The notes under the pieces are model-generated. The model saw nothing but the letters and a program-made list of their open reading frames with translations, was not told the DNA's origin and did not search any database. A stretch of 64,000 nt of DNA, from the NCBI RefSeq assembly GCF_036864975.1, contig NZ_CP104311.1:1652001-1716000 (forward strand), given 5' to 3'. This document shows positions 7,968-62,158 of the stretch, piece after piece. This DNA is from Methylococcus capsulatus. Its GTDB lineage: Bacteria; Pseudomonadota; Gammaproteobacteria; Methylococcales; Methylococcaceae. The position numbers were made by a program, and so were the translations under genes. The first letter of the stretch is position 1, and every line of letters starts with the position of its first letter.

Positions 7968-9497
7968 TCAAGGGGGCAGTTCCGGCGCCGTGCCATCGGG
8001 GCCGCAGGTCACGGTGAACCGCGCCTCGTCTACACCCAGCGGCCGTCGGCTCCGAAGCTGTTTTTCCAGGATGCCGAGGTCGGCGTCCGAAGGATCGGCC
8101 CCCGCTTGTTGCCGGGCCAGGACGCGCTGGCGCAGTATCGGCTCGGGGGCATCTATGGCGACGATGACGAATCCGGCGCCGGTGCGGTCGGCGAGTTCTC
8201 TGGCGTCGTCCCGATATCTTCGCTCGAGAAACGTGGCATCGAGTATGACGGACAGCCCGGCGCGCAACGCAGGCGTTGCGAGTTCCAGCAGTTCGTCGTA
8301 GGTGGCGCGGGTGAATTCAGGAAGGTACATCCGGGCCGGATCGGCCTGGAGGCGTAACGCCAGCCGTTTGCGTTCGACGTCCGAACGGATCACGATGGCC
8401 CGTTCACGTTCCGCGAGCTGCATTGCCAGATGGCTTTTGCCGCTGCCGGAAACGCCGTGCATGATGATGAGCCGGGGCCGCCGGTCCGGTGAAACCGACA
8501 GAGCATAGTCGACGTAGTGGCGGAAGCGGGTCAGATGTTCCACCCTGGCGGCATCCGTGGAAGCGCTCGACCAGCTCAGCACCGCGATCTTGGCGCGGAC
8601 CATGGCCCGATAACGCAGATAGTAGTGCCAGAGTGCCATGCCGCCGTAATCGCCGGTGATGGCTAGGTACCCGTTCACCAGCCTGGCCGCGAGCCGGCAA
8701 AAGTCGCGCGCTTCGAGGTCCATGGCGAGGAATGCGAGCTCGCTGATGACGTCTATCCAGCGCAGTGCCGGGCTGAATTCGATGGCGTCGAAGGGAACCG
8801 GTTTACCGCCGATCAATGCGATGTTGGCGAGATGGAGATCGCCATGGCATTCTCTGACGAAGCCTTCACGTTTCCGAGCCTGGAACACGCCTTCCAGCGC
8901 TTCGTGGTCTGTTTCTGCGGACGCCTTCAATGCAGCGATTCCGCTGTGCATCTCGCCCGGCGGCAACACGGCCTCGATATGGGCGAAATTATCCAGGGTT
9001 GCACTGCGGATGAGGGGCGGGCTGCCATAGTCTTCGGTCCCGCCCGACCGCGGAATCGAACGGTGGAATTCGGCGATCAGGCGAGCCAGCGCATCGACGT
9101 GGTTTGACGTCAGTGTGTTTGCCGCCGCCATGTCCGTGAACAGGGAGCCTTCGGCAAACTGGCGCATTTTCACTGCGTATTCGAACGGCTGGCCTTCGCC
9201 GTCGATCCGTGGCGTTTGCGGTGAACCGGTGATCGGGCAGACGGCGAGATATAGCTCGGGTGCGAGCCTGCGGTTCAGTCTGATTTCCTCTTCGCAGCAT
9301 TGCCGCCGTCGATCGAGCGTCGAAAAGTCGAGGAATCCGAAATCAACGGGCTTCTTGATCTTGTAAGCGTAAGTTCCCGTGAGGAATACCCAGGAAATAT
9401 GGGTTTCGATCAGGCGGATGTTCGAAACCGGGTGGGGATAGGCATCGGCGCTCGTCAGTCCGGCCGGAAATGCACCCTGGTTGTCAACTGTATTCAC
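7968..9497 (-). CDS. Aminoglycoside-phosphotransferase-like / P-loop kinase fusion protein
   Basis: This 509-residue protein has two domains. Residues about 25-330 form an APH-like fold with the catalytic HGDLHLANIAL and a downstream DAIEFSP. Residues about 340-500 form a P-loop kinase of the gluconate/zeta-toxin-like AAA_33 type, with Walker A GVSGSGKS. The fusion is widespread in proteobacteria and its substrate is not known; I do not read it as a resistance gene. It overlaps the end of rnd by 14 bases on the same strand, which suggests one transcript. Confidence 0.85.
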   Translation of the reverse strand: MNTVDNQGAFPAGLTSADAYPHPVSNIRLIETHISWVFLTGTYAYKIKKPVDFGFLDFSTLDRRRQCCEEEIRLNRRLAPELYLAVCPITGSPQTPRIDGEGQPFEYAVKMRQFAEGSLFTDMAAANTLTSNHVDALARLIAEFHRSIPRSGGTEDYGSPPLIRSATLDNFAHIEAVLPPGEMHSGIAALKASAETDHEALEGVFQARKREGFVRECHGDLHLANIALIGGKPVPFDAIEFSPALRWIDVISELAFLAMDLEARDFCRLAARLVNGYLAITGDYGGMALWHYYLRYRAMVRAKIAVLSWSSASTDAARVEHLTRFRHYVDYALSVSPDRRPRLIIMHGVSGSGKSHLAMQLAERERAIVIRSDVERKRLALRLQADPARMYLPEFTRATYDELLELATPALRAGLSVILDATFLERRYRDDARELADRTGAGFVIVAIDAPEPILRQRVLARQQAGADPSDADLGILEKQLRSRRPLGVDEARFTVTCGPDGTAPELPP

Positions 9498-50652: not shown

Positions 50653-51147
50653 ATGAGCCAGTCGTTAGAACAGAAAGACAGTGGATTGTCGAGCAAGGCC
50701 ATGCGCGTTCTCGCTGTCGTGATGGCGGCGCTCGCGGTCATCTATTTCCTCCCGGCATTCATGTCGAGAACCACGGAAATCAATGGGGTGTCCAAGGCGG
50801 CCGCCTACAAGTCGGCGATGAAGGTCAAGCGCTATCTGTCGACCAACGATCGCGTGATCTTCGATACGGCGTTCGGCCTCCTCGACAAGATCAAGTCGCA
50901 GGAGGGGCCGGACGCCTTCGCCAAGGCGGTGGACGGCATGACGCCGGAAGAGGTCATCGAACTGGCACGGACCGCGGTCAACGCTAGGATCGCGGCGGGT
51001 GATCCGGAGTTCAGGCAGTACGCTTCCTGGGACGACATGATTGCGAAGCTGGTGGATACCAGCCTCGGTTCCTCGCGTTCACGCCACGGCTCGGGCCAGC
51101 AGCCAGCGCCGCTGCGCCAGTCGGAGCGTCCTGGGCGACCACAGTGA
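50653..51147 (+). CDS. Membrane-anchored hypothetical protein upstream of zur
   Basis: The 164-residue protein has one membrane helix at about residues 17-36 and then a helical domain with TNDRVIFDTAFGLLDKIKSQ in part and GMTPEEVIELAR. Function is not recognised. The AGAAATC before the ATG at 50653 is a poor RBS. A TATAAT stands at 50560-50565. The stop overlaps the GTG of zur by 4 bases, so both are likely cotranscribed and this gene may belong to the zinc response. Confidence 0.75.
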   Translation: MSQSLEQKDSGLSSKAMRVLAVVMAALAVIYFLPAFMSRTTEINGVSKAAAYKSAMKVKRYLSTNDRVIFDTAFGLLDKIKSQEGPDAFAKAVDGMTPEEVIELARTAVNARIAAGDPEFRQYASWDDMIAKLVDTSLGSSRSRHGSGQQPAPLRQSERPGRPQ

Positions 51148-51662
51148 GTTTCGGAGGGACTCCGTCTGCGGAAGTGGTGGCGCCCGCGCCGTCCGGCGGG
51201 CACGACCATCAGGGGTGCATAGACCGCGCCCTGAGCCGCGCCGAAAAACTCTGCGGCGAGCGCGGGGTGCGCTTCACCCCCCTGCGGCGCCAGGTGCTCG
51301 CGCTGATCTGGGAAAACCATGAGGCGGTCAAGGCTTATGACCTGCTCGAGCTGCTCAAGCCGTTCGATCCGTCCGCCAAGCCCGCAACCGTATATCGGGC
51401 GCTGGATTTCCTGCTGGAGCAGGGTTTCATCCACCGCGTCGAAAGCCTCAACGCTTTCATCGGCTGCAGCGACGTGGGACGCCGGCACGAAATCCTGCTG
51501 CTGATCTGCGACCGCTGCCACACGGTGGAAGAGCGCGCCGCCTCATCCGTCATGGCGGCGGTGGCCGCGGAGATCGCCTCGGCCGGCTTTCGCGTCCGTT
51601 ACAAGGCGCTGGAAATACACGGCATTTGCACGGTTTGTGCCGCGCGAGAAGATTCCGTTTGA
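51144..51662 (+). CDS. zur: Zinc uptake regulator Zur (Fur family)
   Basis: Zur represses zinc-uptake and zinc-sparing genes when zinc is bound. The 172-residue protein has a winged helix (TPLRRQVLALIWE, KPATVYRALDFL) and the structural zinc cysteines C122, C125, C162 and C165. The dimerisation-domain segment GRRHEILLLICDRC fits Zur more than Fur, which has HHDH clusters. The N-terminal 25 residues with HDH are an extension. The start is GTG at 51144. It stands immediately upstream of a Zur-box-bearing receptor operon. Confidence 0.88.
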   Translation: MSFGGTPSAEVVAPAPSGGHDHQGCIDRALSRAEKLCGERGVRFTPLRRQVLALIWENHEAVKAYDLLELLKPFDPSAKPATVYRALDFLLEQGFIHRVESLNAFIGCSDVGRRHEILLLICDRCHTVEERAASSVMAAVAAEIASAGFRVRYKALEIHGICTVCAAREDSV

Positions 51663-51733
51663 GTTCTTCCGAAATTCCTCACTGATAGCCGTTGCGGTCT
51701 GCCGCGTCTTCTGGCCCGTTTCCTTGGCCAGGC

Positions 51734-51763
51734 TTGTTTTTGTTACTTTATAACATATATAAT
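51734..51763 (+). promoter_or_regulatory. znuD promoter with embedded Zur-box-like operator
   Basis: TTGTTT (51734-51739), an 18-base spacer and TATAAT (51758-51763) form a sigma70 promoter. Within the spacer lies the palindrome TGTTA-CTTTA-TAACA (51741-51755), which matches the E. coli Zur consensus TGTTATANTATAACA with two mismatches in the centre. Zinc-loaded Zur bound here would block RNA polymerase. Confidence 0.8.
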
Positions 51764-51888
51764 CGTGCTCGCCGCCAGGGTAGCTCTTCGGGTTGGCTGC
51801 GAGTCTTTGCCGGAAGATACCGGATCGGCTGGCGAGAGACGGGTGACGATATAACATCGGTACGGATCCTCGAGGTTCCGGAAGCATC

Positions 51889-54018
51889 ATGTTCAAACGA
51901 TCTTCTCTCTCCTTCTATTTCATTGCGCTGGTGGCGCCGCTCCATGCCGCCGAGGTTTCCGAGCCGGCGGGCAAGCCGGTCGGTAACGAAATGAGCCCGC
52001 CGGCAGTCGATGCGGAGCCGGCTTCGGTGGAGCTTGAACCGGTCGTTGTCAGCAGTCCGCTGGAGGAAAAAGTCTCCGACATGGCGCGCCCGGTGACCGT
52101 GCTGACCGACAAGGAGTTGCGGACGAAGATCGGTACCACCATCGGCGAAACCCTCAAGCAGGAGGCCGGAGTCACCAGCGGGTCCTTCGGACCCGGCGTC
52201 GGTATCCCGGTGATCCGCGGCCAGACCGGTCCCCGCGTCCAGGTCATGACCAACAGCATAGGCACCGGCGACGTCTCGCAGATCAGCCCGGACCATGCCA
52301 ACGCCGTAGAGCCGGTGCTGGCCGACCGGGTGGAGATCCTGCGCGGTCCGGCCACACTGCTGTATGGCAGCGGGGCGATCGGTGGCATTGTGAACGTTCT
52401 CGACAACCGTATTCCTTCGCTGGTGCCGGACAAGCTGATGACGGCGACCGGGGAACAGCGGTTCAACTCGGTTTCGGGCCAGACTACGACCAACCTCAAG
52501 GTCGAGGGCGGTCAGGATCTGGTGTCCTATCATCTGGACGGCTTTTACCGCGAGAGCAACAATCTGCACATCGGCGGTCCGGCGATCGCCGAGACCCAGG
52601 CGCGCCAGACTGACCTCGCGCTGCAAGGCAGTCCGATCCAGAACTCCTACGGCGTCATCCCCAACACCGAAAACCGGGCCAAGGGCGGTTCCGCTGGGTT
52701 TTCCCTGGTGGGCGAACCGGGCTTTGCCGGAGTGTCGATCAATTACTTGGGCAACAACTACGGCATTCCGCCCGACGGTTCGCCTGGCGCGGGCGACACC
52801 CGGATCAACCTCAAGGAGTCGCGCTACGATTTCAAGAGCGAGCTGAACGCCCCGGTGGATTTCGTCGAGATCGTGCGCATGCGCTTCGGCCACATCAATT
52901 ACACCCACACCGAGCTGAACGACGGCGTGGCGGCCGCCCGTTTCAACAAGACGACCAACGAAGGCCGTCTGGAAGTTGCGCATCAGCCCATCGGCATCGT
53001 GAAGGGTGTCGTTGGGGTACAGATGAGTTCGGCCGATTTCGAGGCGATCGAAATCGGCTCCCCTGACGCGCTGGTGCCCAAATCGCAGCTCGGCAGCTAC
53101 GGCGTGTTCGCGGTCGAATCCTTCGAGCTGGGCGCGGGGGTATACGAGCTTGGGTTGCGCGGGGAATCGGATTCCATCGATCCCCAGGGTGGCCCCAACC
53201 GCAGTTATGCGCCGATCAGCGCCTCCGCCTCCGGGCAATGGAAGCTCGACGACGAACACGCCGTCAGCTTCGCCGTGACCCGCTCGCAACGGGCGCCCCA
53301 GGTGCAGGAGCTGTTCACCGACGGCGTGCACGATGCCACGCACAGCTATGAGCTGGGTGATCCCAATCTCACCGAGGAAACCTCTTACAACTTCGACTGG
53401 GGCTACCGCTACAGGGGGCGGGGAATCAGCGCCGAGCTCAACGTGTTCCAGAACTTCGTGAACGATTACATCTACCAGCAGATCACGGATGAGGTGTTCA
53501 ACGAAGACTCCGAGCAGTTCGAGAAAGCCTGCACCAGTCCGGGCGCCTGTTTCCCGGTGGTGCAGACCACCCAGGCCGGTGCCTACTTCCTGGGCTACGA
53601 AGGCAACGTCAAATTTTCGCTGATGGAAAACCGCTACGGGGTGCTGGACCTGACCCTGTTCAGTGATTTCACCCGCGGCCAGTTCGTCAACGGCGGCAAC
53701 GTGCCGCGCATGCCGCCGCTGCGCTACGGCCTCCAGCTCGACTATGCCTACGACGAGCACTGGAGCGGCAATCTGCGGCTGACTCGCGGCGAGAAGCAGA
53801 TTTATGCCGGCCAGAACGATGCCATGACCAACGGCTACGTGCTGCTCAACCTGGGCGTGCAGTACGAGGTCAAGGCGTTCAAGGACGCCGATGTGCTGGT
53901 CTTCGCCCAGGGCAACAACCTGCTCAACGACAACATCCGCAACTCCACCTCCTACTTGCGCTATTTCGCGCCGGAGGCGGGGCGCGGGGCGGAACTGGGA
54001 ATTCGGATTACCTATTAG
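51889..54018 (+). CDS. znuD: ZnuD-like TonB-dependent outer-membrane receptor
   Basis: The 709-residue receptor has a signal peptide ending near PLHAAEV, a TonB-box-like EPVVVSS and a plug domain with EILRGPATLLYGSGAIGGIVN in part. A 22-strand barrel ends in IRITY. The plug sequence and the adjacent zur and Zur-box support zinc uptake (ZnuD type), not siderophores. No long His-rich loop is present. A leader of about 120 bases separates promoter and gene. It is followed after 17 bases by the DUF1826 gene. Confidence 0.88.
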   Translation: MFKRSSLSFYFIALVAPLHAAEVSEPAGKPVGNEMSPPAVDAEPASVELEPVVVSSPLEEKVSDMARPVTVLTDKELRTKIGTTIGETLKQEAGVTSGSFGPGVGIPVIRGQTGPRVQVMTNSIGTGDVSQISPDHANAVEPVLADRVEILRGPATLLYGSGAIGGIVNVLDNRIPSLVPDKLMTATGEQRFNSVSGQTTTNLKVEGGQDLVSYHLDGFYRESNNLHIGGPAIAETQARQTDLALQGSPIQNSYGVIPNTENRAKGGSAGFSLVGEPGFAGVSINYLGNNYGIPPDGSPGAGDTRINLKESRYDFKSELNAPVDFVEIVRMRFGHINYTHTELNDGVAAARFNKTTNEGRLEVAHQPIGIVKGVVGVQMSSADFEAIEIGSPDALVPKSQLGSYGVFAVESFELGAGVYELGLRGESDSIDPQGGPNRSYAPISASASGQWKLDDEHAVSFAVTRSQRAPQVQELFTDGVHDATHSYELGDPNLTEETSYNFDWGYRYRGRGISAELNVFQNFVNDYIYQQITDEVFNEDSEQFEKACTSPGACFPVVQTTQAGAYFLGYEGNVKFSLMENRYGVLDLTLFSDFTRGQFVNGGNVPRMPPLRYGLQLDYAYDEHWSGNLRLTRGEKQIYAGQNDAMTNGYVLLNLGVQYEVKAFKDADVLVFAQGNNLLNDNIRNSTSYLRYFAPEAGRGAELGIRITY

Positions 54019-54035
54019 CCCAGAACAACGATCGC

Positions 54036-54725
54036 ATGCCTACCTGTCCAGACGATATGGCCACCGCGGCCTCCCTGTTTGAAACGCCCGCCACTCGGAC
54101 CGCTGTCATCTCCGAAGACTTCGCCGACCTGGCCCGCATCTATGAGCCTGACGTCTACCTCTGCCTCGTACGGCGGCCGCCCGTGCCGGCGATCGAGCGC
54201 TTCGTCGGCGAACTGCTGAACGAAGGGAAGCAAATCGAGTTGTCGCAAGCTTTGCCCTTCGAGCATTTCGATTTTTCTTCGCTGCTGCCCGAATATCGTG
54301 GGCTGGAAGGCCATGACGCGTGGTGGCGCGACATCGCCCGCCTCACCGCCGCGTTTTGCGATCTGTTCGAAACCGGTTCGGTCGGGCTGCGTCTGAGAAC
54401 GCTGAACCAGGCCATGTGCCCGCGCTTCCACGTCGATTTCGTACCCTGCCGGCTGGTGTGCACCTACGGCGGGCGGGGGACCGAGTGGCTGGCGGACGGC
54501 GAGGTGGATCGAACCAAGCTGGGTCTTGCCGGCTCGAAAGGCTTATCGGACGAGGAATCCGGCTTGATCTTGGGCGGTGTCCGCGCCATGCCGGCCCATG
54601 CCGTCGCCCTGATGAAAGGCGCCACCTGGGGAGGGCTAGACTATCCCGGCGCCGTGCATCGATCGCCCAAGCCGACTCCGGAGCAGCCGCGCCGCTTGCT
54701 GTTGACCCTGGACCTGCTGTTATAG
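54036..54725 (+). CDS. DUF1826 protein of the zinc-starvation group
   Basis: The 229-residue protein matches DUF1826, found next to COG0523 GTPases in Zur regulons. Conserved RFHVDFVPCRLVCTYGGRGTEWL in part and GAVHRSPKPT are visible. The set H132-x-D134, H208 and R219/R220 resembles the iron and 2-oxoglutarate residues of Fe(II)/2OG oxygenases; this is my inference. An alternative start at ATG 54057 would remove seven residues. Its function is unknown. Confidence 0.8.
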   Translation: MPTCPDDMATAASLFETPATRTAVISEDFADLARIYEPDVYLCLVRRPPVPAIERFVGELLNEGKQIELSQALPFEHFDFSSLLPEYRGLEGHDAWWRDIARLTAAFCDLFETGSVGLRLRTLNQAMCPRFHVDFVPCRLVCTYGGRGTEWLADGEVDRTKLGLAGSKGLSDEESGLILGGVRAMPAHAVALMKGATWGGLDYPGAVHRSPKPTPEQPRRLLLTLDLLL

Positions 54726-54740
54726 GAGGAGGATGAGAGC

Positions 54741-56457
54741 ATGCTGACGAAACTGGCCGGCGCGTCCGTCTACGATCCGGTACAAGGTTGGGCGGGCGAA
54801 GTCCGCGATCTATACATCCGGGATGGCCGCATCGCCGTCGACCCGGGGCCCGATGCCACAGTCGATGAGTTGCACGACCTTTCGGGCCATATCCTCATGG
54901 ACGGAGCGATCGACATCCACAGCCATATTGCCGGCGGCAATGTGAACACGGCGAGGGTACTTCTGCCGGAGCAGCATCGGAACTCGATGGCGCGGTGGCT
55001 GAACCCTCCGGAGCTCACGCCGTCCATGGGATTCGTCCCTTTGGGGCTTGCTTTGCGGTCCCAGTTGGCTCCCGCCGGATTTGTCAGTACGGCCAAATGG
55101 TCGAGCGCCGACATCGGCCACCGTTACGCCCGGATGGGGTATACCACCGTGGTCGAGCCGGCGGTGCTGCCGGCCAACGCCCTGGACGCCCATCTGCAGA
55201 TGGCCGACATTCCCATCGTCGACACGGCGGGCCTGGCCATCCTGGGCAGCGACGATTTTCTGCTGGGACTGCTGCGCGACCAGGCCAGCCAGGCGCAGGT
55301 CAACGACTACGTGGCATGGACGCTGTGCGCCACCCGCTGCCTGGGACTCAAGGTGATCAATGCCGGCGGGGCCGCAGCCTTCAAATGGAACGTACGCCAG
55401 TTCGATCTAGACGATGTAGTGCCGTATTACGGTGTCAGCTCCCGCCGGATCCTGCAAACGCTGCAGCGGGCCGTGTGCGAGCTGGGCATCCCGCATCCCG
55501 TGCACGTCCACTGCAACAATCTGGGTGCCGGGCAATGTGGAAACCGCCGTCGCCACCATGGAGGCCGCACAGGGTCTGCCCATGCATCTGGCGCACTTCC
55601 AGTTCTACGGTTACGGGCAGGAAGGCGCCAAGGGCTTTTCCTCGGGCGCGGCGCGTCTGATGGAAGCTTTCCACCGCCACCCCAACATCACCATGGATGT
55701 GGGTCAGGTGCTGTTCGAGCAGATGGTCACCGTTTCCGGCGACGTGATCGCGCAGTACAGCCGCCGCGGCGACGCCAGCCCCAGCAAATGGGTGGTGTGG
55801 GAGGCCGAGTGCGACGGCGCCGGCGGGGTGGTGCCTTACCGGTACCGGGAGCGGAGTTTCGTCAACACCCTGCAGTGGGCCGTCGGTCTCGAGATTTTCC
55901 TGCTGGCGGAAGACCCCTGGCGGCTGTTTTTCACCACCGATCATCCTAACGGCGCGCCTTTCACCGCCTATCCGGAACTGATCCGCTTGCTGATGGACGC
56001 CGACTACCGTGCATCGGTAATGGCCCGGCTCGATCAGGAAGCGCTGGCCTTGACGCTTTTGCCCCACCTGCGCCGGGAGTTTTCCCTCCACGACATTGCG
56101 GTCATGACACGGGCAGCCGCGGCGCGTCTTTTGGGTTTGGAAGACCGCGGCCACCTGTGTCCCGGCGCCATCGCCGATGTCGCCGTCTACCGGCCGCAGG
56201 CGGATAAGCGGGCGATGTTCACCGACGCGGCATGGGTATGGAAAGGTGGAAGACTCGTGGTTCGCGAGGGCGCCGTGGTCGATCGCCCAGCGGGTTCGGC
56301 GCTGACCATTGAGCCTTGCTACGACAGGCGCATCGAGCGCGACGTCAAAGCCTATTTAGATCGCTTCTACAGCCTGTCGCTGGACCATTTCACCGTGGGC
56401 GGCGTCGCTTTCGAACGCGAAGATGCCGAGCGTTTCCGCTCGATTCGGGCGGCATGA
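54741..56457 (+). pseudogene. fhcA: Formyltransferase/hydrolase complex subunit A (formylmethanofuran dehydrogenase subunit A-like), frameshifted
   Basis: FhcA is the zinc amidohydrolase subunit of the complex that turns formyl-tetrahydromethanopterin into formate in methylotrophs. The first frame (54741 to about 55524) has YDPVQGWAGEVRDLYIRDGR, H60-S-H62 in DIHSHIAGGNVNTAR, K204 and VHVHCNNLG. The second frame, one base over, continues PGNVETAVATMEAAQGLPMHLAHFQFYGYG in part, DVGQVLFEQMVT and FTTDHPNGAPFT to the stop at 56457. The break is in CTGGGTGCCG at 55521-55530, best explained by loss of two G from a five-G tract. Repaired, it has about 572 residues. The ATG follows GGAGGAGG. The other fhc genes are not present. 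Confidence 0.88.
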
Positions 56458-56467
56458 GGATCAGACA

Positions 56468-56911
56468 ATGCTTGAGTGCGACGTCGAATTAGCCGACGGT
56501 AGCCCTATCAGTGCGGAGGAGTTATTGGCGATGCCGGAGGGCGATTACATGAACGCGAGTCAGACCGCCTTCTTCCGTCACTACTTGGGAGCCCTTCGAG
56601 CCGAATTATTGGAGCGCGCTTTGTCGGCACGGACCGTATTGGAAGCAGGGGATGGTCTTTCCGATCCCAACGACCGGGCGACGTTGGAAGAAGAACATCT
56701 CATTGAGCGGCGCCGGCTGGATCGGGAACGCAAGTATCTGAAGAAGATCGATGCCGCCCTGGCGCGCATCGGCGAGGGAACCTATGGCTATTGCGAAGAA
56801 ACGGGCGAACCGATCGGTTTGCGGCGTCTGCTTGCCCGGCCTACTACTACGCTATGCCTGGAAGCCCAGATCCGCCACGAGCGCGCCGAACGGCAGGGCA
56901 ATCCGTCATGA
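56468..56911 (+). CDS. dksA2: DksA2-type transcription factor lacking two zinc cysteines
   Basis: DksA binds RNA polymerase in its secondary channel and acts with ppGpp. The 147-residue protein starts at ATG 56468; a longer open frame overlaps fhcA. The coiled-coil tip motif D66-P-N-D69-R-A71 is intact. The zinc-finger positions read C109-x-x-T112 and C130-x-x-A133, in place of four cysteines. The same C/T/C/A pattern is known from Pseudomonas aeruginosa DksA2, which works without zinc and is Zur-controlled. It overlaps the next gene by 4 bases. Confidence 0.92.
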   Translation: MLECDVELADGSPISAEELLAMPEGDYMNASQTAFFRHYLGALRAELLERALSARTVLEAGDGLSDPNDRATLEEEHLIERRRLDRERKYLKKIDAALARIGEGTYGYCEETGEPIGLRRLLARPTTTLCLEAQIRHERAERQGNPS

Positions 56912-57126
56912 CCTTCAGGGTTCCACAGACCTACAGCGCGTGGCGCCACTGCATCGAGGTGGAATGCGGCATTCCTTTGACGGTGGCTTTCCTCCATGCA
57001 CGGCTTGCCGCCTTGAGGGACGGAGATGCCGAGGAAGCGGGGCGGTTTCGGCGTCTTTACGGCGACGCCCATTGGCTGCGCGTGTTGGGTTGGTTCGAGC
57101 ACGCGGCGCAGGAGACTCAACCGTGA
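56908..57126 (+). CDS. 72-residue protein of unknown function between dksA2 and hisI
   Basis: The ATG at 56908 overlaps the dksA2 stop and its own stop overlaps the hisI GTG, so it is translated within the operon. The protein MTFRVPQTYSAWRHCIEVEC continues with helical ALRDGDAEEAGRFRRLYG and HWLRVLGWFEHAA. It has two cysteines and three histidines but no known domain that I recognise. Confidence 0.7.
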   Translation: MTFRVPQTYSAWRHCIEVECGIPLTVAFLHARLAALRDGDAEEAGRFRRLYGDAHWLRVLGWFEHAAQETQP

Positions 57127-57533
57127 TCGACTTGGCCGAAACCTTGCCGGAAGGCGGCCGCCTGCCATGGCGGGCCGTCATGGATAGCTTACCTTTCGAC
57201 GACCGCGGCCTGATTCCCGCCATCGCCCAGCAATACGACACCGGTCAGGTGCTCATGCTCGCGTGGATGAACCGCGCGGCGCTCGTCGAGACGCTGGCCA
57301 CGGGGCGTGTCTGCTACTGGTCGCGTTCGCGCCAGGCGCTTTGGCGCAAGGATGAGACTTCGGGGTACCGGCAGTGGCTGAAGGAGCTGCGCCTGGATTG
57401 TGACGGCGACACGGTGCTGCTTCTGGTCGATCAACAGGGTCCGTCCTGTCACACCGGACGTTCGAGTTGTTTTTACAACCGCGTCGACGGCGAAGACTTG
57501 GTCGTCGATTCGAGGAGTCTGTCTCGTGAGTGA
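57123..57533 (+). CDS. hisI: Phosphoribosyl-AMP cyclohydrolase (HisI), zinc-island copy
   Basis: HisI opens the ring of phosphoribosyl-AMP in histidine synthesis, a zinc- and magnesium-dependent step. The 136-residue protein starts with GTG at 57123. It has the magnesium motif D92-C-D94-x-D96 and the zinc cysteines C93, C109 and C116 ([13 protein letters not shown]), so it keeps the known metal ligands. It is a stand-alone cyclohydrolase without HisE. HisI paralogues are known in Zur-linked clusters. It overlaps genes on both sides. Confidence 0.9.
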
Positions 57534-58503
57534 AACCATTCCAGTAACGATTCTCACCGGTTTTTTGGGTGCAGGTAAAACCACGCTCTTGAACCGTATC
57601 CTCGGCGAAGCGCATGGTCAGCGTATCGCCGTGATCGAAAACGAGTTCGGTGAGATCGGGGTGGATAACGAGTTGCTGCAGCAGGGCGACGAGCAGATCG
57701 TCGAGATGAACAACGGCTGCATTTGCTGCACGGTGCGTGGCGACCTGGTGCGCATCCTGGGCGATCTGGCGGAGCGCCGCCGCCGGGGCGCGGTGAATTT
57801 CTGCCGGGTCCTCATCGAAACCACGGGGCTGGCCGATCCGGCGCCGGTGGCGCAGACGTTTTTCGTCGACGAAGGCGTTGCCCGGGATTACCGCCTGGAC
57901 GCCATCATCACGGTGGTGGACGCCAAACATGCTCCGCGGCAGCTCGATGAGTGCCACGAGGCGCAGGAGCAGGTCGGTTTTGCCGACCGCATTCTGTTGT
58001 CCAAGACCGACCTGGTCAGCGAGGAATCGGTGAACGCTTTGATGGCGCGCCTGCGTGCTATGAATCCGCGCGCTCCCCTGCTGCGCGTCCACTTCGGTCA
58101 GGTGGACCTGCGCGAAGTCCTCGACATCCGGGGGTTTGATTTAAGGGAAATCCTTGCTCTGGAACCGGACTTTCTGGAGGACGTCAGCCACGAACATGAT
58201 GACGCCGTCGGTTCGTTCGTGTACCGCTCCGGCAAACCTTTCGACTTCGCGCGTCTGTTTTACTTCATGGAAATCATGGTCGGCCGATTCGGTCAGGAGT
58301 TGTTGCGCTACAAAGGTATCCTCAACGTAGCCGGATGCGACCGCCGCATCGTTTTTCAGGGCGTACACATGATGTTCGGCGACACGGCGGGGCTGCCTTG
58401 GGGCGAGGGGGAGGCGCGCGAGTCCCAATTGGTATTCATTGGGCGCAACCTGCCGCGCGATCAGATTCTGGCCGCTTTGGCCTCCTGTCACGTCGATGGC
58501 TGA
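57526..58503 (+). CDS. COG0523 (CobW/YjiA-type) G3E GTPase, putative zinc chaperone 1
   Basis: The 325-residue GTPase starts with GTG at 57526. Walker A is [12 protein letters not shown], the metal motif is GCICCTVR, and [12 protein letters not shown] and LSKTDL follow, then a CobW C-terminal domain. A short SHEHDD stands where some members have His tracts. COG0523 members in Zur clusters are thought to deliver zinc to client enzymes during starvation; clients here could be HisI, QueD or FhcA. It overlaps hisI and the second GTPase gene by 8 bases each. Confidence 0.9.
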
Positions 58504-59479
58504 TTCCGACTCGCGACTGCCGGTACTCGTCCTCACCGGCTTTCTCGGCAGCGGAAAGACCACCTTGCTGAATCGTTTGCTCCGCGAGGGGCCGAGGACA
58601 GCGGTGCTGATCAACGAATTCGGCAGCGCGCCGGTCGACCAGGAGCTGCTCGGACGGCAGGATCTGCCGCTGATGGTATTGTCCGGTGGCTGCCTGTGTT
58701 GTCAGATAAAAGGCGCTTTGGCCCCGAACCTGAAAAATCTATGGATGGCATGGAGTCGCGGAGCGACACCCCCGTTCGAGCGGCTCATCATCGAAGCCAG
58801 TGGTGTCGCCAGCCCGGAACCTGTCCTGGACACCCTGCTGCGGGATCGCTGGCTGTCTTCCCGTTACCGCTTGCAAAGCGTCGTAACCACACTGGCCGTG
58901 CCCTCTGCCGTGGAGCATCTGGATCGGTTTCTCGAAGCCCGCGCTCAGGTGGCCTGGGCGGATACATTGGTGCTCACCCATGGCGATTTGGCCGGTTCGG
59001 AGGACAGTGTGCGCTTGGACCTCCGGTTGCAAGAACTCGCTCCGGCTACGCTACGGTTGGCCGTGGTGCGAGGTGCTGTCGATCCAGAGGCCGTTCTAAC
59101 CGCGGTTACGACCGATAACCGCCGGCTGCCTCAAGGGCAGGATTCGCCCGATCACGGGTTCCGCAGCGTTTCCCTCTATCTGAGCACGCCGATGCCCTGG
59201 CCGCAGCTGCAAACGGTACTGGAAGGATTGTTGAGCCGGCACCGTTCCCGCCTGGTGCGGGTCAAGGGCGTGGTTCGCCTGTCCGACCAGACCGAGCCCG
59301 TCATCGTACAAGCCGTGGCGGACCGGTTGTATCCGCCGGTGTGCTTGCCAGCCCGCACAGCCGACGATCGTCTGGGACGCCTGGTTTTTATCGCCGCCGG
59401 CCCCGTTCACGAACTCGCCGACGAGTTGATGGCGACCATCGGTGGCATCGCGGTTCCGGACGCGATCCGGCTGCATTGA
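58496..59479 (+). CDS. COG0523 G3E GTPase, putative zinc chaperone 2
   Basis: The 327-residue protein starts at ATG 58496, overlapping the first GTPase gene by 8 bases. It has [24 protein letters not shown] and [13 protein letters not shown], the motifs of the family, but is clearly divergent from the first. It resembles the second COG0523 subgroup found beside DUF1826 in Pseudomonas. No His tract is present. Confidence 0.88.
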
Positions 59480-59500
59480 CCAACGTTCCTATCGCAACTC

Positions 59501-59938
59501 ATGAACGCCTACAACGATACCCCCTTCCTCGCCTCGACCGCCGCTTCAGGCAAGCGCGGCCTTTATATCCTTCGCGTGCAGGTCCAGTTCTCGTCCGCAC
59601 ACTCGCTCCGCGATTATCTCGGCGATTGCCGCCGGATGCACGGACATAACTGGAAGCTGGAGGTGGAGGTGTCCGCAAGTGTCCTGGATGCGCTGGGCAT
59701 CGCCCTGGATTTCAAGACGATCAAGGCGGAAACCCGGGCACTCGCCGATAGCCTCGATCACCGCTATCTCAATGAGATCGAGCCGTTCGACAGGATCAAT
59801 CCGACCGCGGAAAATCTGGCCGGCTGGTTTTACCGCCGGCTTTCCTCAAAGCTGGATCGGGAGTTCGCCAAGGTGAGTGCGGTGACCGTCTGGGAGACGG
59901 ATACGTCGTCGGTCCGCTACACCGAGGACGAAGCATGA
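59501..59938 (+). CDS. queD: 6-pyruvoyl-tetrahydropterin synthase/QueD-family protein
   Basis: The 145-residue T-fold protein has the zinc ligands H34 (FSSAHSL), H47 and H49 (MHGHNW) and the catalytic-type cysteine C43, plus D86-H87. QueD makes 6-carboxytetrahydropterin for queuosine; related enzymes act in pterin synthesis. It is an island copy next to folE2, so the two may act in sequence on GTP-derived dihydroneopterin triphosphate. The stop overlaps the folE2 ATG. Confidence 0.87.
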   Translation: MNAYNDTPFLASTAASGKRGLYILRVQVQFSSAHSLRDYLGDCRRMHGHNWKLEVEVSASVLDALGIALDFKTIKAETRALADSLDHRYLNEIEPFDRINPTAENLAGWFYRRLSSKLDREFAKVSAVTVWETDTSSVRYTEDEA

Positions 59939-60741
59939 AGGACGCTGGTTTGGCTATCGACGACGTGCAGGGCTGAGCGGACCTGCGCCGCATAGACATC
60001 GACAGGGTCGGGATCAAGGGCATTCTTCATCCGGTTAGGGTCAGGGATCGAAGTCTAGGCGAACAGCACACCATCGCCCGCTTCGACATGGCGGTGAGTC
60101 TGCTCCACCACTTCAAGGGGACCCATATGTCGCGCTTTGTGGAGATCATCAACGGCCACGATCGGGAGATCGACGTCGCCTCGTTCGAGGCGATGCTGGT
60201 TGAAATAGTGGAGCGCCTGGAAGCCGAGGCCGGCTACATCGAGATGCATTTTCCCTATTTCCTGGAGAAACGGGCGCCGGTAACCGGCGCGAAAAGCCTC
60301 ATGGATTACCAAGTGGCATTGATTGGCGAGATCGCGGGAACGAAGGCGGCGAGCCGCATCAAAGTGATCGTGCCGGTCACCAGCCTGTGTCCCTGCTCAA
60401 AGGCGATTTCCGAGCGCGGCGCCCACAACCAGCGGTCTCACGTTGCCGTCACCGTGCGCACCCGAGGTTTTGTCTGGATTGAAGAGTTGATCGAATGGGT
60501 GGAGGCCGAGGCCTCTTCGCCGATTTACGGCCTCCTCAAGCGTGCCGACGAAAAGTACGTCACCGAATATGCCTACGACCATCCCCGCTTCGTCGAGGAT
60601 CTGGTACGCGGTGTGGCCGCCCGTTTGGATGCCGAACCGCGTATCGCGGCATACGCGGTCGAGGCGGAAAATTTCGAATCCATTCACAACCATTCGGTCT
60701 ACGCGCTGATCGAGCGTGACAAGGGGATGGCGGCCGCTTGA
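59935..60741 (+). pseudogene. folE2: GTP cyclohydrolase IB (FolE2) with in-frame TGA at codon 14
   Basis: FolE2 makes dihydroneopterin triphosphate without needing zinc and replaces FolE during zinc starvation. The frame starts at ATG 59935 (overlapping queD), reads MKDAGLAIDDVQG and then TGA (59974-59976). After that it continues in frame as [31 protein letters not shown] and [14 protein letters not shown]. The catalytic cysteine region [19 protein letters not shown] and ENFESIHNH are intact. CGA to TGA would explain the stop. The next ATG is 60088, which would drop the first 50 residues. It is either a pseudogene, a recent mutation, a sequence error or read through. Confidence 0.88.
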
Positions 60742-60836
60742 TGCCCTCCATCCGCCGCTGACGGCCTTGAATTCACTGGTACGGGAACCGACGCGATCGA
60801 ATAGAATGGCGGGCTAAAATTCGCCAGGACCTTTCT

Positions 60837-61673
60837 ATGAACCGATTGCTTGCCTTGCTCGCCCAGGATCGCCCCCTGATCATGGGTATCCTCAATGTCA
60901 CCCCCGACAGTTTTTCCGACGGCGGCCTGTACGACGACGTCGAGCAGGCCGTCCGCCGCGGCGTGTTCATGGCGGGCGAGGGCGCCGACGTGATCGACGT
61001 GGGCGGGGAGTCAACCCGGCCGGGGGCGGAGCCGGTCGAGGCCGCGGTCCAGATCGCGCGTGTGGTTCCGGTCATTGAGCGCCTGCGGGTGCTGCTGCCC
61101 GAACGGGTGGCGATCAGCATCGATACCACCCAAGCGGAAGTGGCGCGCTCGGCCCTGGCCGCCGGTGCGGACCTGATCAATGACGTTTCGGCCGGTCGGG
61201 ACGATCCAGCCATGTTGTCGCTCGCGGCGGCGGATGGAGTGCCGATCGTGCTGATGCACATGCAGGGTAGCCCTAAGACCATGCAGGAGCGGCCGCATTA
61301 CGAAGACGTAGTCGCCGAAGTGCTGGCGTTCCTGCTGGAGCAGGCGGAGGCAGCCGGGCGCGCCGGCGTCCCGCGCGAATCCATCCTCCTCGATCCCGGC
61401 ATCGGCTTCGGCAAGCGCCGGGACGACAATCTGAAGCTGATGGCCCACCTGGACCGCTTCGTTGCCACGGGCTATCCGGTACTGCTGGGCACCAGCCGGA
61501 AGCGCTTCATGGGGGCGGTCTGCGGCGAAACCGAGCCGGCGGCGCTGGTGCCGGCGACGGTGGCGACGACTGCGCTGGGCGTGTCAGCCGGGGTGCGGCT
61601 GTTTCGGGTTCACGACGTGAAGGAGAACCGGCAGGCGGCGGATGTCGCGGATGCGATCCGCCGCGCGCGTTAG
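60837..61673 (+). CDS. folP: Dihydropteroate synthase
   Basis: FolP joins p-aminobenzoate and hydroxymethyldihydropterin pyrophosphate in folate synthesis. The 278-residue TIM-barrel protein has NVTPDSFSDGG, GGESTRPGA, NDVSAGRDDP, DPGIGFGK and SRKRFMG. It starts 95 bases after folE2 and is probably separate. Its stop is 4 bases from the panD stop on the other strand. Confidence 0.96.
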   Translation: MNRLLALLAQDRPLIMGILNVTPDSFSDGGLYDDVEQAVRRGVFMAGEGADVIDVGGESTRPGAEPVEAAVQIARVVPVIERLRVLLPERVAISIDTTQAEVARSALAAGADLINDVSAGRDDPAMLSLAAADGVPIVLMHMQGSPKTMQERPHYEDVVAEVLAFLLEQAEAAGRAGVPRESILLDPGIGFGKRRDDNLKLMAHLDRFVATGYPVLLGTSRKRFMGAVCGETEPAALVPATVATTALGVSAGVRLFRVHDVKENRQAADVADAIRRAR

Positions 61674-61677
61674 GGCT

Positions 61678-62058
61678 TCAGGCCGCCTGCACCGGGATGG
61701 CGTGGCTGGTCCGGGTGATCTGGTTGTTTTCGTTGACGTAGACGAGGTTAGGCCGGTAACTGGCCAGTTCGGCCTGGTTCAAGCCGACGTAGGCGCAGAT
61801 GATGAGGACATCGCCCACGGCGGCTAGACGGGCGGCTGCGCCATTGACCGAGATGGTGCCGGAGCCATCGGCGGCGCGGATGGCATAGGTGGTGAAGCGT
61901 TGCCCATTGTTGACATTGTAGATCTGGATTTGCTCGTATTCGCGAATGCCGGCACAGTCGAGCAGCGCGCCGTCGATGGCGCAGGAGCCTTCGTATTCGA
62001 GCTCCGAATGGGTCACACGCGCTCGGTGCAACTTGGCTTTCAACATCGTGGTTTGCAT
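61678..62058 (-). CDS. panD: Aspartate 1-decarboxylase
   Basis: PanD makes beta-alanine from aspartate for pantothenate. The 126-residue proenzyme cleaves itself between G24 and S25 (YEGSCAID) to form the pyruvoyl group; starting at ATG 62058 gives exactly this numbering. It lies 100 bases downstream of panC. Confidence 0.96.
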
Positions 62059-62158
62059 TGAGCGTACCTGTCAGGTCTGATCAGGGCCAGGGATTATGCC
62101 GGATGGGCCGGAGTGTAGCAATCCGGCGACTGTGGAGAATCTGAAACAACCCGTTTCA

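Follow-up and report, generated by a model that had tools for sequence, protein, structure and literature searches.

Formate is released from formyl-methylofuran by the formyltransferase/hydrolase complex, whose amidohydrolase subunit, FhcA, has the amidohydrolase fold also found in PyrC. FhcA-type subunits bear a binuclear metal site, composed of four histidines, a carboxylysine and an aspartate, at which a formyl amide is made or cleaved (PMC11656701). Nine families, queD, hisI and thrS among them, have been listed in which a zinc enzyme has a Zur-regulated paralog in a cluster with COG0523 genes (Haas et al. 2009, PMC2770081). As alternatives for the mechanism, the same paper names the use of another metal and an effect of copy number. 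PyrC, too, has a Zur-regulated paralog within Zur islands, in gamma- and betaproteobacteria; the relatives of this paralog have, as FhcA has, a lysine-bridged binuclear zinc site, but the paralog itself has lost the zinc-binding residues (PMC2770081).

The window analyzed here, a stretch of 64,000 nucleotides from Methylococcus capsulatus, contains an FhcA-family gene, hereafter fhcA2, at 54741-56457. Like the paralogs of Haas et al. (PMC2770081), fhcA2 is a second copy of a gene for a zinc-dependent protein in a Zur/COG0523 cluster, and three of the nine families (HisI, QueD and DksA) together with FolE2 are present in the window. FhcA2 keeps its zinc ligands, as do the HisI, ThrRS and QueD paralogs (PMC2770081), so that, in contrast with the PyrC paralog, none was lost. 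The ligand loss of the zinc-independent replacements, such as the PyrC, HemB and DksA paralogs, was not found in FhcA2. Unlike the described families, FhcA is not among the nine listed, and neither FhcA nor formylmethanofuran nor Methylococcus occurs in the main text of that paper (PMC2770081). By its second copy, its clustering and its Zur box, FhcA2 is a putative member of the Zur-regulated zinc-enzyme paralogs. No report linking FhcA to zinc or Zur was found in the open-access literature, subscription journals lying outside the scope of the search, in agreement with the preliminary description of this DNA, which knew of no such link.

Gene content of the zinc-starvation island

A run of genes on the forward strand, from 51144 to 60741, comprises the following features.

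51144..51662, + strand: zur, Fur-family regulator (PF01475); best model Zur NF008646 at 156 bits, slightly below the cut-off of 167
51741..51755, + strand: Zur-box-like palindrome TGTTACTTTATAACA upstream of znuD, with three mismatches to the wider gamma-type box
51843..51855, + strand: weaker box-like site GTGACGATATAAC, 101 bp downstream of the first, with three mismatches
51889..54018, + strand: znuD-like TonB-dependent receptor; best match ZnuD NF038289 at 379.8 bits, below the cut-off of 950
54036..54725, + strand: DUF1826 protein (PF08856, E 1.2e-59)
54741..55526, + strand: N-terminal piece of fhcA2, first frame (TIGR03121 positions 2-240), 89-95% identical to three Methylococcus relatives
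55517..55526, + strand: frame change within fhcA2, net -2 or +1 bases
55525..56457, + strand: C-terminal piece of fhcA2, second frame (TIGR03121 positions 239-552), 96-97% identical to the three relatives
56468..56911, + strand: dksA2, DksA paralog with two of the four zinc-finger cysteines (TIGR02420)
56908..57126, + strand: small protein of 72 aa, with matches in L035, L040, L041, L086 and L088
57123..57533, + strand: hisI2, phosphoribosyl-AMP cyclohydrolase paralog (NF000768, 163 bits)
57526..58503, + strand: COG0523 GTPase a (PF02492 and PF07683); NF008578 and, lower, ZigA NF038288, both below cut-off
58496..59479, + strand: COG0523 GTPase b; NF008578 at 149 bits, below the cut-off of 361
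59501..59938, + strand: queD, 6-pyruvoyl-tetrahydropterin synthase family (PF01242)
59935..60741, + strand: folE2, its N-terminus cut off as sequenced (PF02649 positions 45-260, from 60088 onward)

From dksA2 to the second COG0523 gene, adjacent frames overlap by a few bases. The Zur protein has a single match in its own genome. A scan of 51600-62100 for sigma-70 promoters and terminators gave a background level. The 72-aa protein is recurrent in zinc islands, where it mostly stands directly before hisI.

The profile matches agree with the earlier placement of an FhcA-family gene in a Zur run, where DUF1826 and a DksA paralog flank it, and its isolation was borne out, since no fhcB, fhcC or fhcD was found by tblastn within about 9 kb. 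The complete second fhc locus that had been proposed as a check is present. The genome (3.43 Mb, one contig) encodes another FhcA, FhcA1, 54% identical to FhcA2. Its gene belongs to a canonical fhcBADC cluster with mch and fae close by, these names being backed by NCBIfam equivalog models above cut-off. This rules out fhcA2 as the only fhcA of the genome. Other proteins of the island are doubled as well. The other HisI is 53% identical to hisI2, the other DksA (46% identity) has CxxC/CxxC, all four zinc-finger cysteines, where dksA2 has CxxT/CxxA, and FolE1 is also encoded. With a second HisI, a second DksA and FolE1 in the genome, fhcA2 stands among zinc-protein paralogs.

Lesions in fhcA2 and folE2

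The gene had been presented as intact in the preliminary description, which is not the case: fhcA2 is split near 55,520 over two frames (ORF 54741-55949 and ORF 55432-56457), and a stop in folE2 had also been overlooked. The two fhcA2 pieces abut across 4 bases in the window, against 6 in the three Methylococcus relatives (L034, L035 and L036), where the gene is a single open frame of 572 aa. The other FhcA2 proteins of same-family genomes are likewise encoded by open frames, of 547-614 aa (8/8). Taken apart, the window pieces score 265.7 and 333.3 bits with TIGR03121, each below the cut-off of 392.75. In folE2, an in-frame TGA lies at 59974-59976, a point through which L035 and L036 remain open, so that two lesions are found in one island, 4.4 kb apart.

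The dN/dS ratio is low on either side of the fhcA2 break (0.23-0.24 for the N-terminal and 0.08-0.14 for the C-terminal piece) and in folE2 after its stop (0.12-0.16), which fits either very recent damage or an assembly error. An error of assembly or sequencing, leaving fhcA2 in fact intact, is a serious possibility which we stop just short of favoring. These low ratios speak for it, but the second lesion is of a different kind and the stretch from znuD to folP has been lost in the sister genome G011, so that decay within the genus is plausible. There (L265, 11755-16085), folP comes immediately after zur and znuD, and no gene of the DUF1826-to-folE2 segment was found between znuD and folP. The broken fhcA2 and stopped folE2 of the window, together with the missing segment of G011, indicate that FhcA2 function is dispensable there. 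The fhcA2 of the window probably does not work and may be newly dead, or else it is mis-assembled.

Distribution and genomic linkage of fhcA2

Within the same family, FhcA2 is present at no less than 68% identity in 9 of 38 genomes, that of the window included. In Methylococcales as a whole, 66 fhcA2 loci were counted by hand in 63 of 311 genomes, a count which may miss short fragments, and each locus was read with up to about 9 kb per side where the contig allowed. Zur, ZnuD, DUF1826, FolE2, DksA2 and COG0523 were taken as the zinc set. Two or more genes of this set lie near fhcA2 in 61 of the 66 loci, compared with 0 of 25 canonical fhcA1 loci, 22 of which come from genomes that also bear fhcA2 (20 plus L003 and L136). 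DUF1826 is found near 58 of the 66 and ZnuD near 34, and no FhcB, FhcC, FhcD, Mch or Fae was detected near any of them (tblastn, E <= 1e-8, about 9 kb). Near the 25 canonical genes the partners are FhcB (24 loci), FhcC (25) and FhcD (25), and no zinc gene was found at any of these loci. A canonical FhcA with FhcC and FhcD exists elsewhere in all 22 fhcA2-bearing Methylococcales genomes checked. The linkage of fhcA2 to zinc genes is far above chance.

The gene order varies between hosts; in Methylomonas WSC-7 (L078), for example, DUF1826 stands on one side of fhcA2 and a run of thrS, queD, folE2, hisI and COG0523 genes on the other. Among the best 80 of 277 matches, the named hosts include M. 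capsulatus Texas, Methylocaldum, Methylomonas (with strain LW13), Methylobacter, Crenothrix, Methylotuvimicrobium buryatense 5G and Methylophaga aminisulfidivorans. In M. buryatense 5G (L209), two small reverse-strand genes (8237-8918), resembling a toxin-antitoxin pair when read from their translations, lie between a ZIP transporter gene and fhcA2 and break up the island.

Five of the 66 loci have fewer than two genes of the zinc set. One of them, L084, has a ZIP-family transporter (ZupT-like, below cut-off) directly upstream of fhcA2, with a Zur box ahead of the transporter. The remaining four (L077, L097, L116 and L125) form one FhcA2 sub-branch outside zinc islands, and three of their four genomes also have a zinc-island copy; G104, G119 and G181 have one fhcA2 of each kind. 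The neighbors of this sub-branch, read from translations, are sulphate-activation, ispG or biotin-type genes.

Among the same best 80 of 277 matches, 18 more loci, mostly from Methylophaga, encode proteins 57-62% identical to FhcA2. At least two zinc-set genes are near 13 of them and none near three (L199, a 3-kb contig, L201 and L206), and FhcB was found near none of the 18. The Methylophaga Zur matches are distant (31-38% identity); the one that was scored has Zur as its best model, below cut-off. A second FhcA is present in 15 of 15 genomes searched, and it adjoins FhcB, FhcC and FhcD in the four Methylophaga genomes examined. In Filomicrobium ih4, a ZnuA gene is found in the neighborhood of an FhcA2-like gene, as are matches to HisI, Zur-like and COG0523 proteins, and the other FhcA adjoins FhcB; FhcC and FhcD were not found beside it. 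A gammaproteobacterial MAG (L274) carries two fhcB-A-D-C clusters side by side and a separate FhcA2-like gene beside hisI (L206).

The check proposed in the preliminary description, a search for fhcA beside zur, dksA2 or COG0523 genes in other Methylococcales, came out in its favor, zur, COG0523, DUF1826, folE2 or znuD being neighbors of fhcA2 across Methylococcales and in Methylophaga. A linkage unique to one genome is ruled out by the islands found across Methylococcales. L189, L217, L235, L003 and L042 were not kept, each being either a duplicate of another row or the window itself. For the phylum sample (L218-L234), the flanks taken with each FhcA gene were only about 1.5 kb long.

Zur-box-like sites

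The two sites of the window lie between zur and znuD. An identical core, GTTACTTTATAAC, is present in five Methylococcus loci, the window included, and the spacing of the two sites is the same in L034, L035, L036 and the window. The sequence TGTTAYNNTATAACA has its only exact match in the genome at the window site. Genome-wide, with up to two mismatches allowed, the box pattern gave fewer matches than its reversed control did (7 vs 21), and for this reason only the exact match was used.

A box with at most two mismatches to the gamma-type Zur consensus was found in 42 of 66 fhcA2 loci. None was found in the 25 fhcA1 loci or in 330 dinucleotide-shuffled versions of the fhcA2 loci, and the 24 fhcA2 loci without a box at this threshold include some short contigs. 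When the window, at three mismatches, is added, the box is upstream of fhcA2 in 42 of 43 boxed loci, and in 38 of these 42 the larger frames between box and fhcA2 are all on the same strand. For the Methylophaga-type loci, boxes at up to two mismatches were found in 5 of 18, compared with 1 of 90 shuffles. These boxes predict a control of the island by Zur.

Phylogeny and active site of FhcA2

Intact FhcA2 proteins are full-length members of TIGR03121 (cut-off 392.75), with 631.8 bits for L036, 639.6 for Methylophaga L194 and 640.6 for Filomicrobium L207. In trees of 139 and 137 proteins, built by a quick method and rooted at the midpoint, FhcA2 and the Methylophaga-type proteins group together, apart from canonical FhcA (SH-aLRT 96). 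Rows below 480 aa or identical to others were left out, 139 being kept. The broken copy of the window is in no tree, nor is L127, which has one inner stop, and L086 is represented by L209, which has the same sequence. The first tree places L212, a long-branched alphaproteobacterial FhcA without zinc neighbors, inside the FhcA2 branch; the second was built without L212 and L206. Given the separate branch, an origin of fhcA2 by recent duplication of the FhcA1 gene in the same genome is ruled out.

The metal ligands H60, H62, K204, H257, H286 and D401, and also H255, are present in 64 of 64 FhcA2 and 18 of 18 Methylophaga-type rows. The preliminary description had named H60, H62, K204, the VHVH histidines and the TTDH aspartate and had concluded that the protein is not a zinc-free version, and both statements hold: a zinc-free version through loss of ligands is ruled out. 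With the ligands retained, zinc sparing is not visible in the FhcA2 sequence. Canonical Methylococcales FhcA1 belongs to the same family and has the same ligands, at about 52-56% identity; it differs in being encoded in fhcBADC, in its own branch and in the lysine at position 67 (L036 numbering), where FhcA2 has asparagine. This lysine, of the FwdA gatekeeper type, is found in 25 of 25 Methylococcales FhcA1 proteins, and asparagine occupies the position in all FhcA2, Methylophaga-type, Sedimenticola-type and Alpha-group FhcA rows.

By sequence, the best structural relative of FhcA2 is the FhcA of PDB 6s6y, chain A (E 1e-146), an entry which we take to be the formyltransferase/hydrolase complex of Methylorubrum extorquens. 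Both proteins have the HSH, HVHCNNLG and TTDHPNG motifs and the K and H ligands. They differ in that A338/R342 replaces the arginine of the canonical rows in FhcA2, and in that FhcA2 is encoded away from FhcBCD. An AlphaFold model of FhcA2, for which ten aligned sequences were used, was of low quality (mean pLDDT 61.3).

FhcA2 retains 111 of the 118 columns that canonical FhcA proteins conserve. Position 338 (L036 numbering) is alanine in all 82 FhcA2 and Methylophaga-type rows, against arginine in 48 of 57 canonical ones, and Arg342 is present in 64 of 64 FhcA2 and 16 of 18 Methylophaga-type rows. Counted along the alignment, position 338 corresponds to Met323 of FwdA, a residue lining the furfuryl group (PMC11656701). 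The residues aligned with Leu235 and Phe274 of FwdA are kept in all rows, and M274 and L203 are further fixed or near-fixed residues of FhcA2. Such a combination of kept columns with a 338/342 change would be expected of an enzyme whose reaction is unchanged but whose pocket or metal environment differs.

Possible role of FhcA2

Taken together, the linkage, the boxes and the conserved active site make it probable that the fhcA2 family is a zinc-starvation paralog of FhcA performing the canonical reaction on formyl-methylofuran. In the mechanism that we infer, which includes Zur derepression, assembly with FhcBCD and metal supply, zinc-loaded Zur would repress the island and a drop in zinc would allow FhcA2 to be made. 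The protein would then be filled with scarce zinc, perhaps through the COG0523 GTPases of the island, or with another metal, and would take the place of FhcA1 with FhcBCD, so that formaldehyde oxidation could continue.

Metal exchange, supply by a chaperone and dosage are the candidate ways in which such a copy would help. A swapped FhcA2-BCD holoenzyme, formed under zinc starvation in methanotrophs and Methylophaga and using a non-zinc metal or a dedicated delivery by COG0523, is a tentative proposal, which we regard as rather unlikely. Were it true, the oxidation of formaldehyde, and with it the use of methane, would have a controlled bottleneck in the supply of zinc, and the altered enzyme would be recognizable by its fixed A338/R342 exchange at the coenzyme pocket. 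A dosage copy would have the same role by another mechanism: FhcA2 would be a normal zinc enzyme, and with more molecules of it present some would be more likely to be metallated, with neither a new metal nor a chaperone. We regard this too as possible but doubtful, since the retention of all ligands is in agreement with it, but the long-separate branch and the residues A338, R342, M274 and L203 suggest specialized properties.

The other alternatives detach FhcA2 from the Fhc complex or from zinc. FhcA2 could have left the complex to hydrolyze another amide during zinc shortage, in a formylated metabolite or a metal-binding molecule, as its occurrence with FhcBCD in 0 of 66 loci and the pocket change to A338 in 82 of 82 rows could suggest. 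This is improbable, however, because 111 of the 118 canonical columns and the residues aligned with Leu235 and Phe274 of FwdA are kept, Arg342, four residues past 338, looks like a compensation, and the canonical cluster is also present in the genomes checked. That fhcA2 is in the island by chance, as a passenger without a part in the zinc response, appears very improbable: four of 66 loci lack any zinc neighbor and one sister genome (G011) lives without the gene, but the linkage in 61 of 66 is maintained over several gene orders and sets of neighbors, with a similar company in Methylophaga and with ZnuA and COG0523 genes near the Filomicrobium copy.

Significance

The paralogs described earlier act in protein synthesis and in the chemistry of nucleotides, histidine, folate, haem, queuosine and the cell wall (Haas et al. 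2009, PMC2770081). To these, FhcA2 would add an enzyme of central energy metabolism, by which methanotrophs and methylotrophs convert a carrier-bound formyl group to formate. FhcA2 is also a candidate client for COG0523 GTPases, and FhcA1 and FhcA2 could serve as a natural pair for the study of changes in a zinc enzyme made for scarcity. The presence of a spare fhcA in the zinc islands of methanotrophs and methylotrophs suggests that central carbon metabolism is guarded against zinc shortage in these bacteria. If this is true, zinc would be a nutrient able to limit methane oxidation and the safe handling of formaldehyde.
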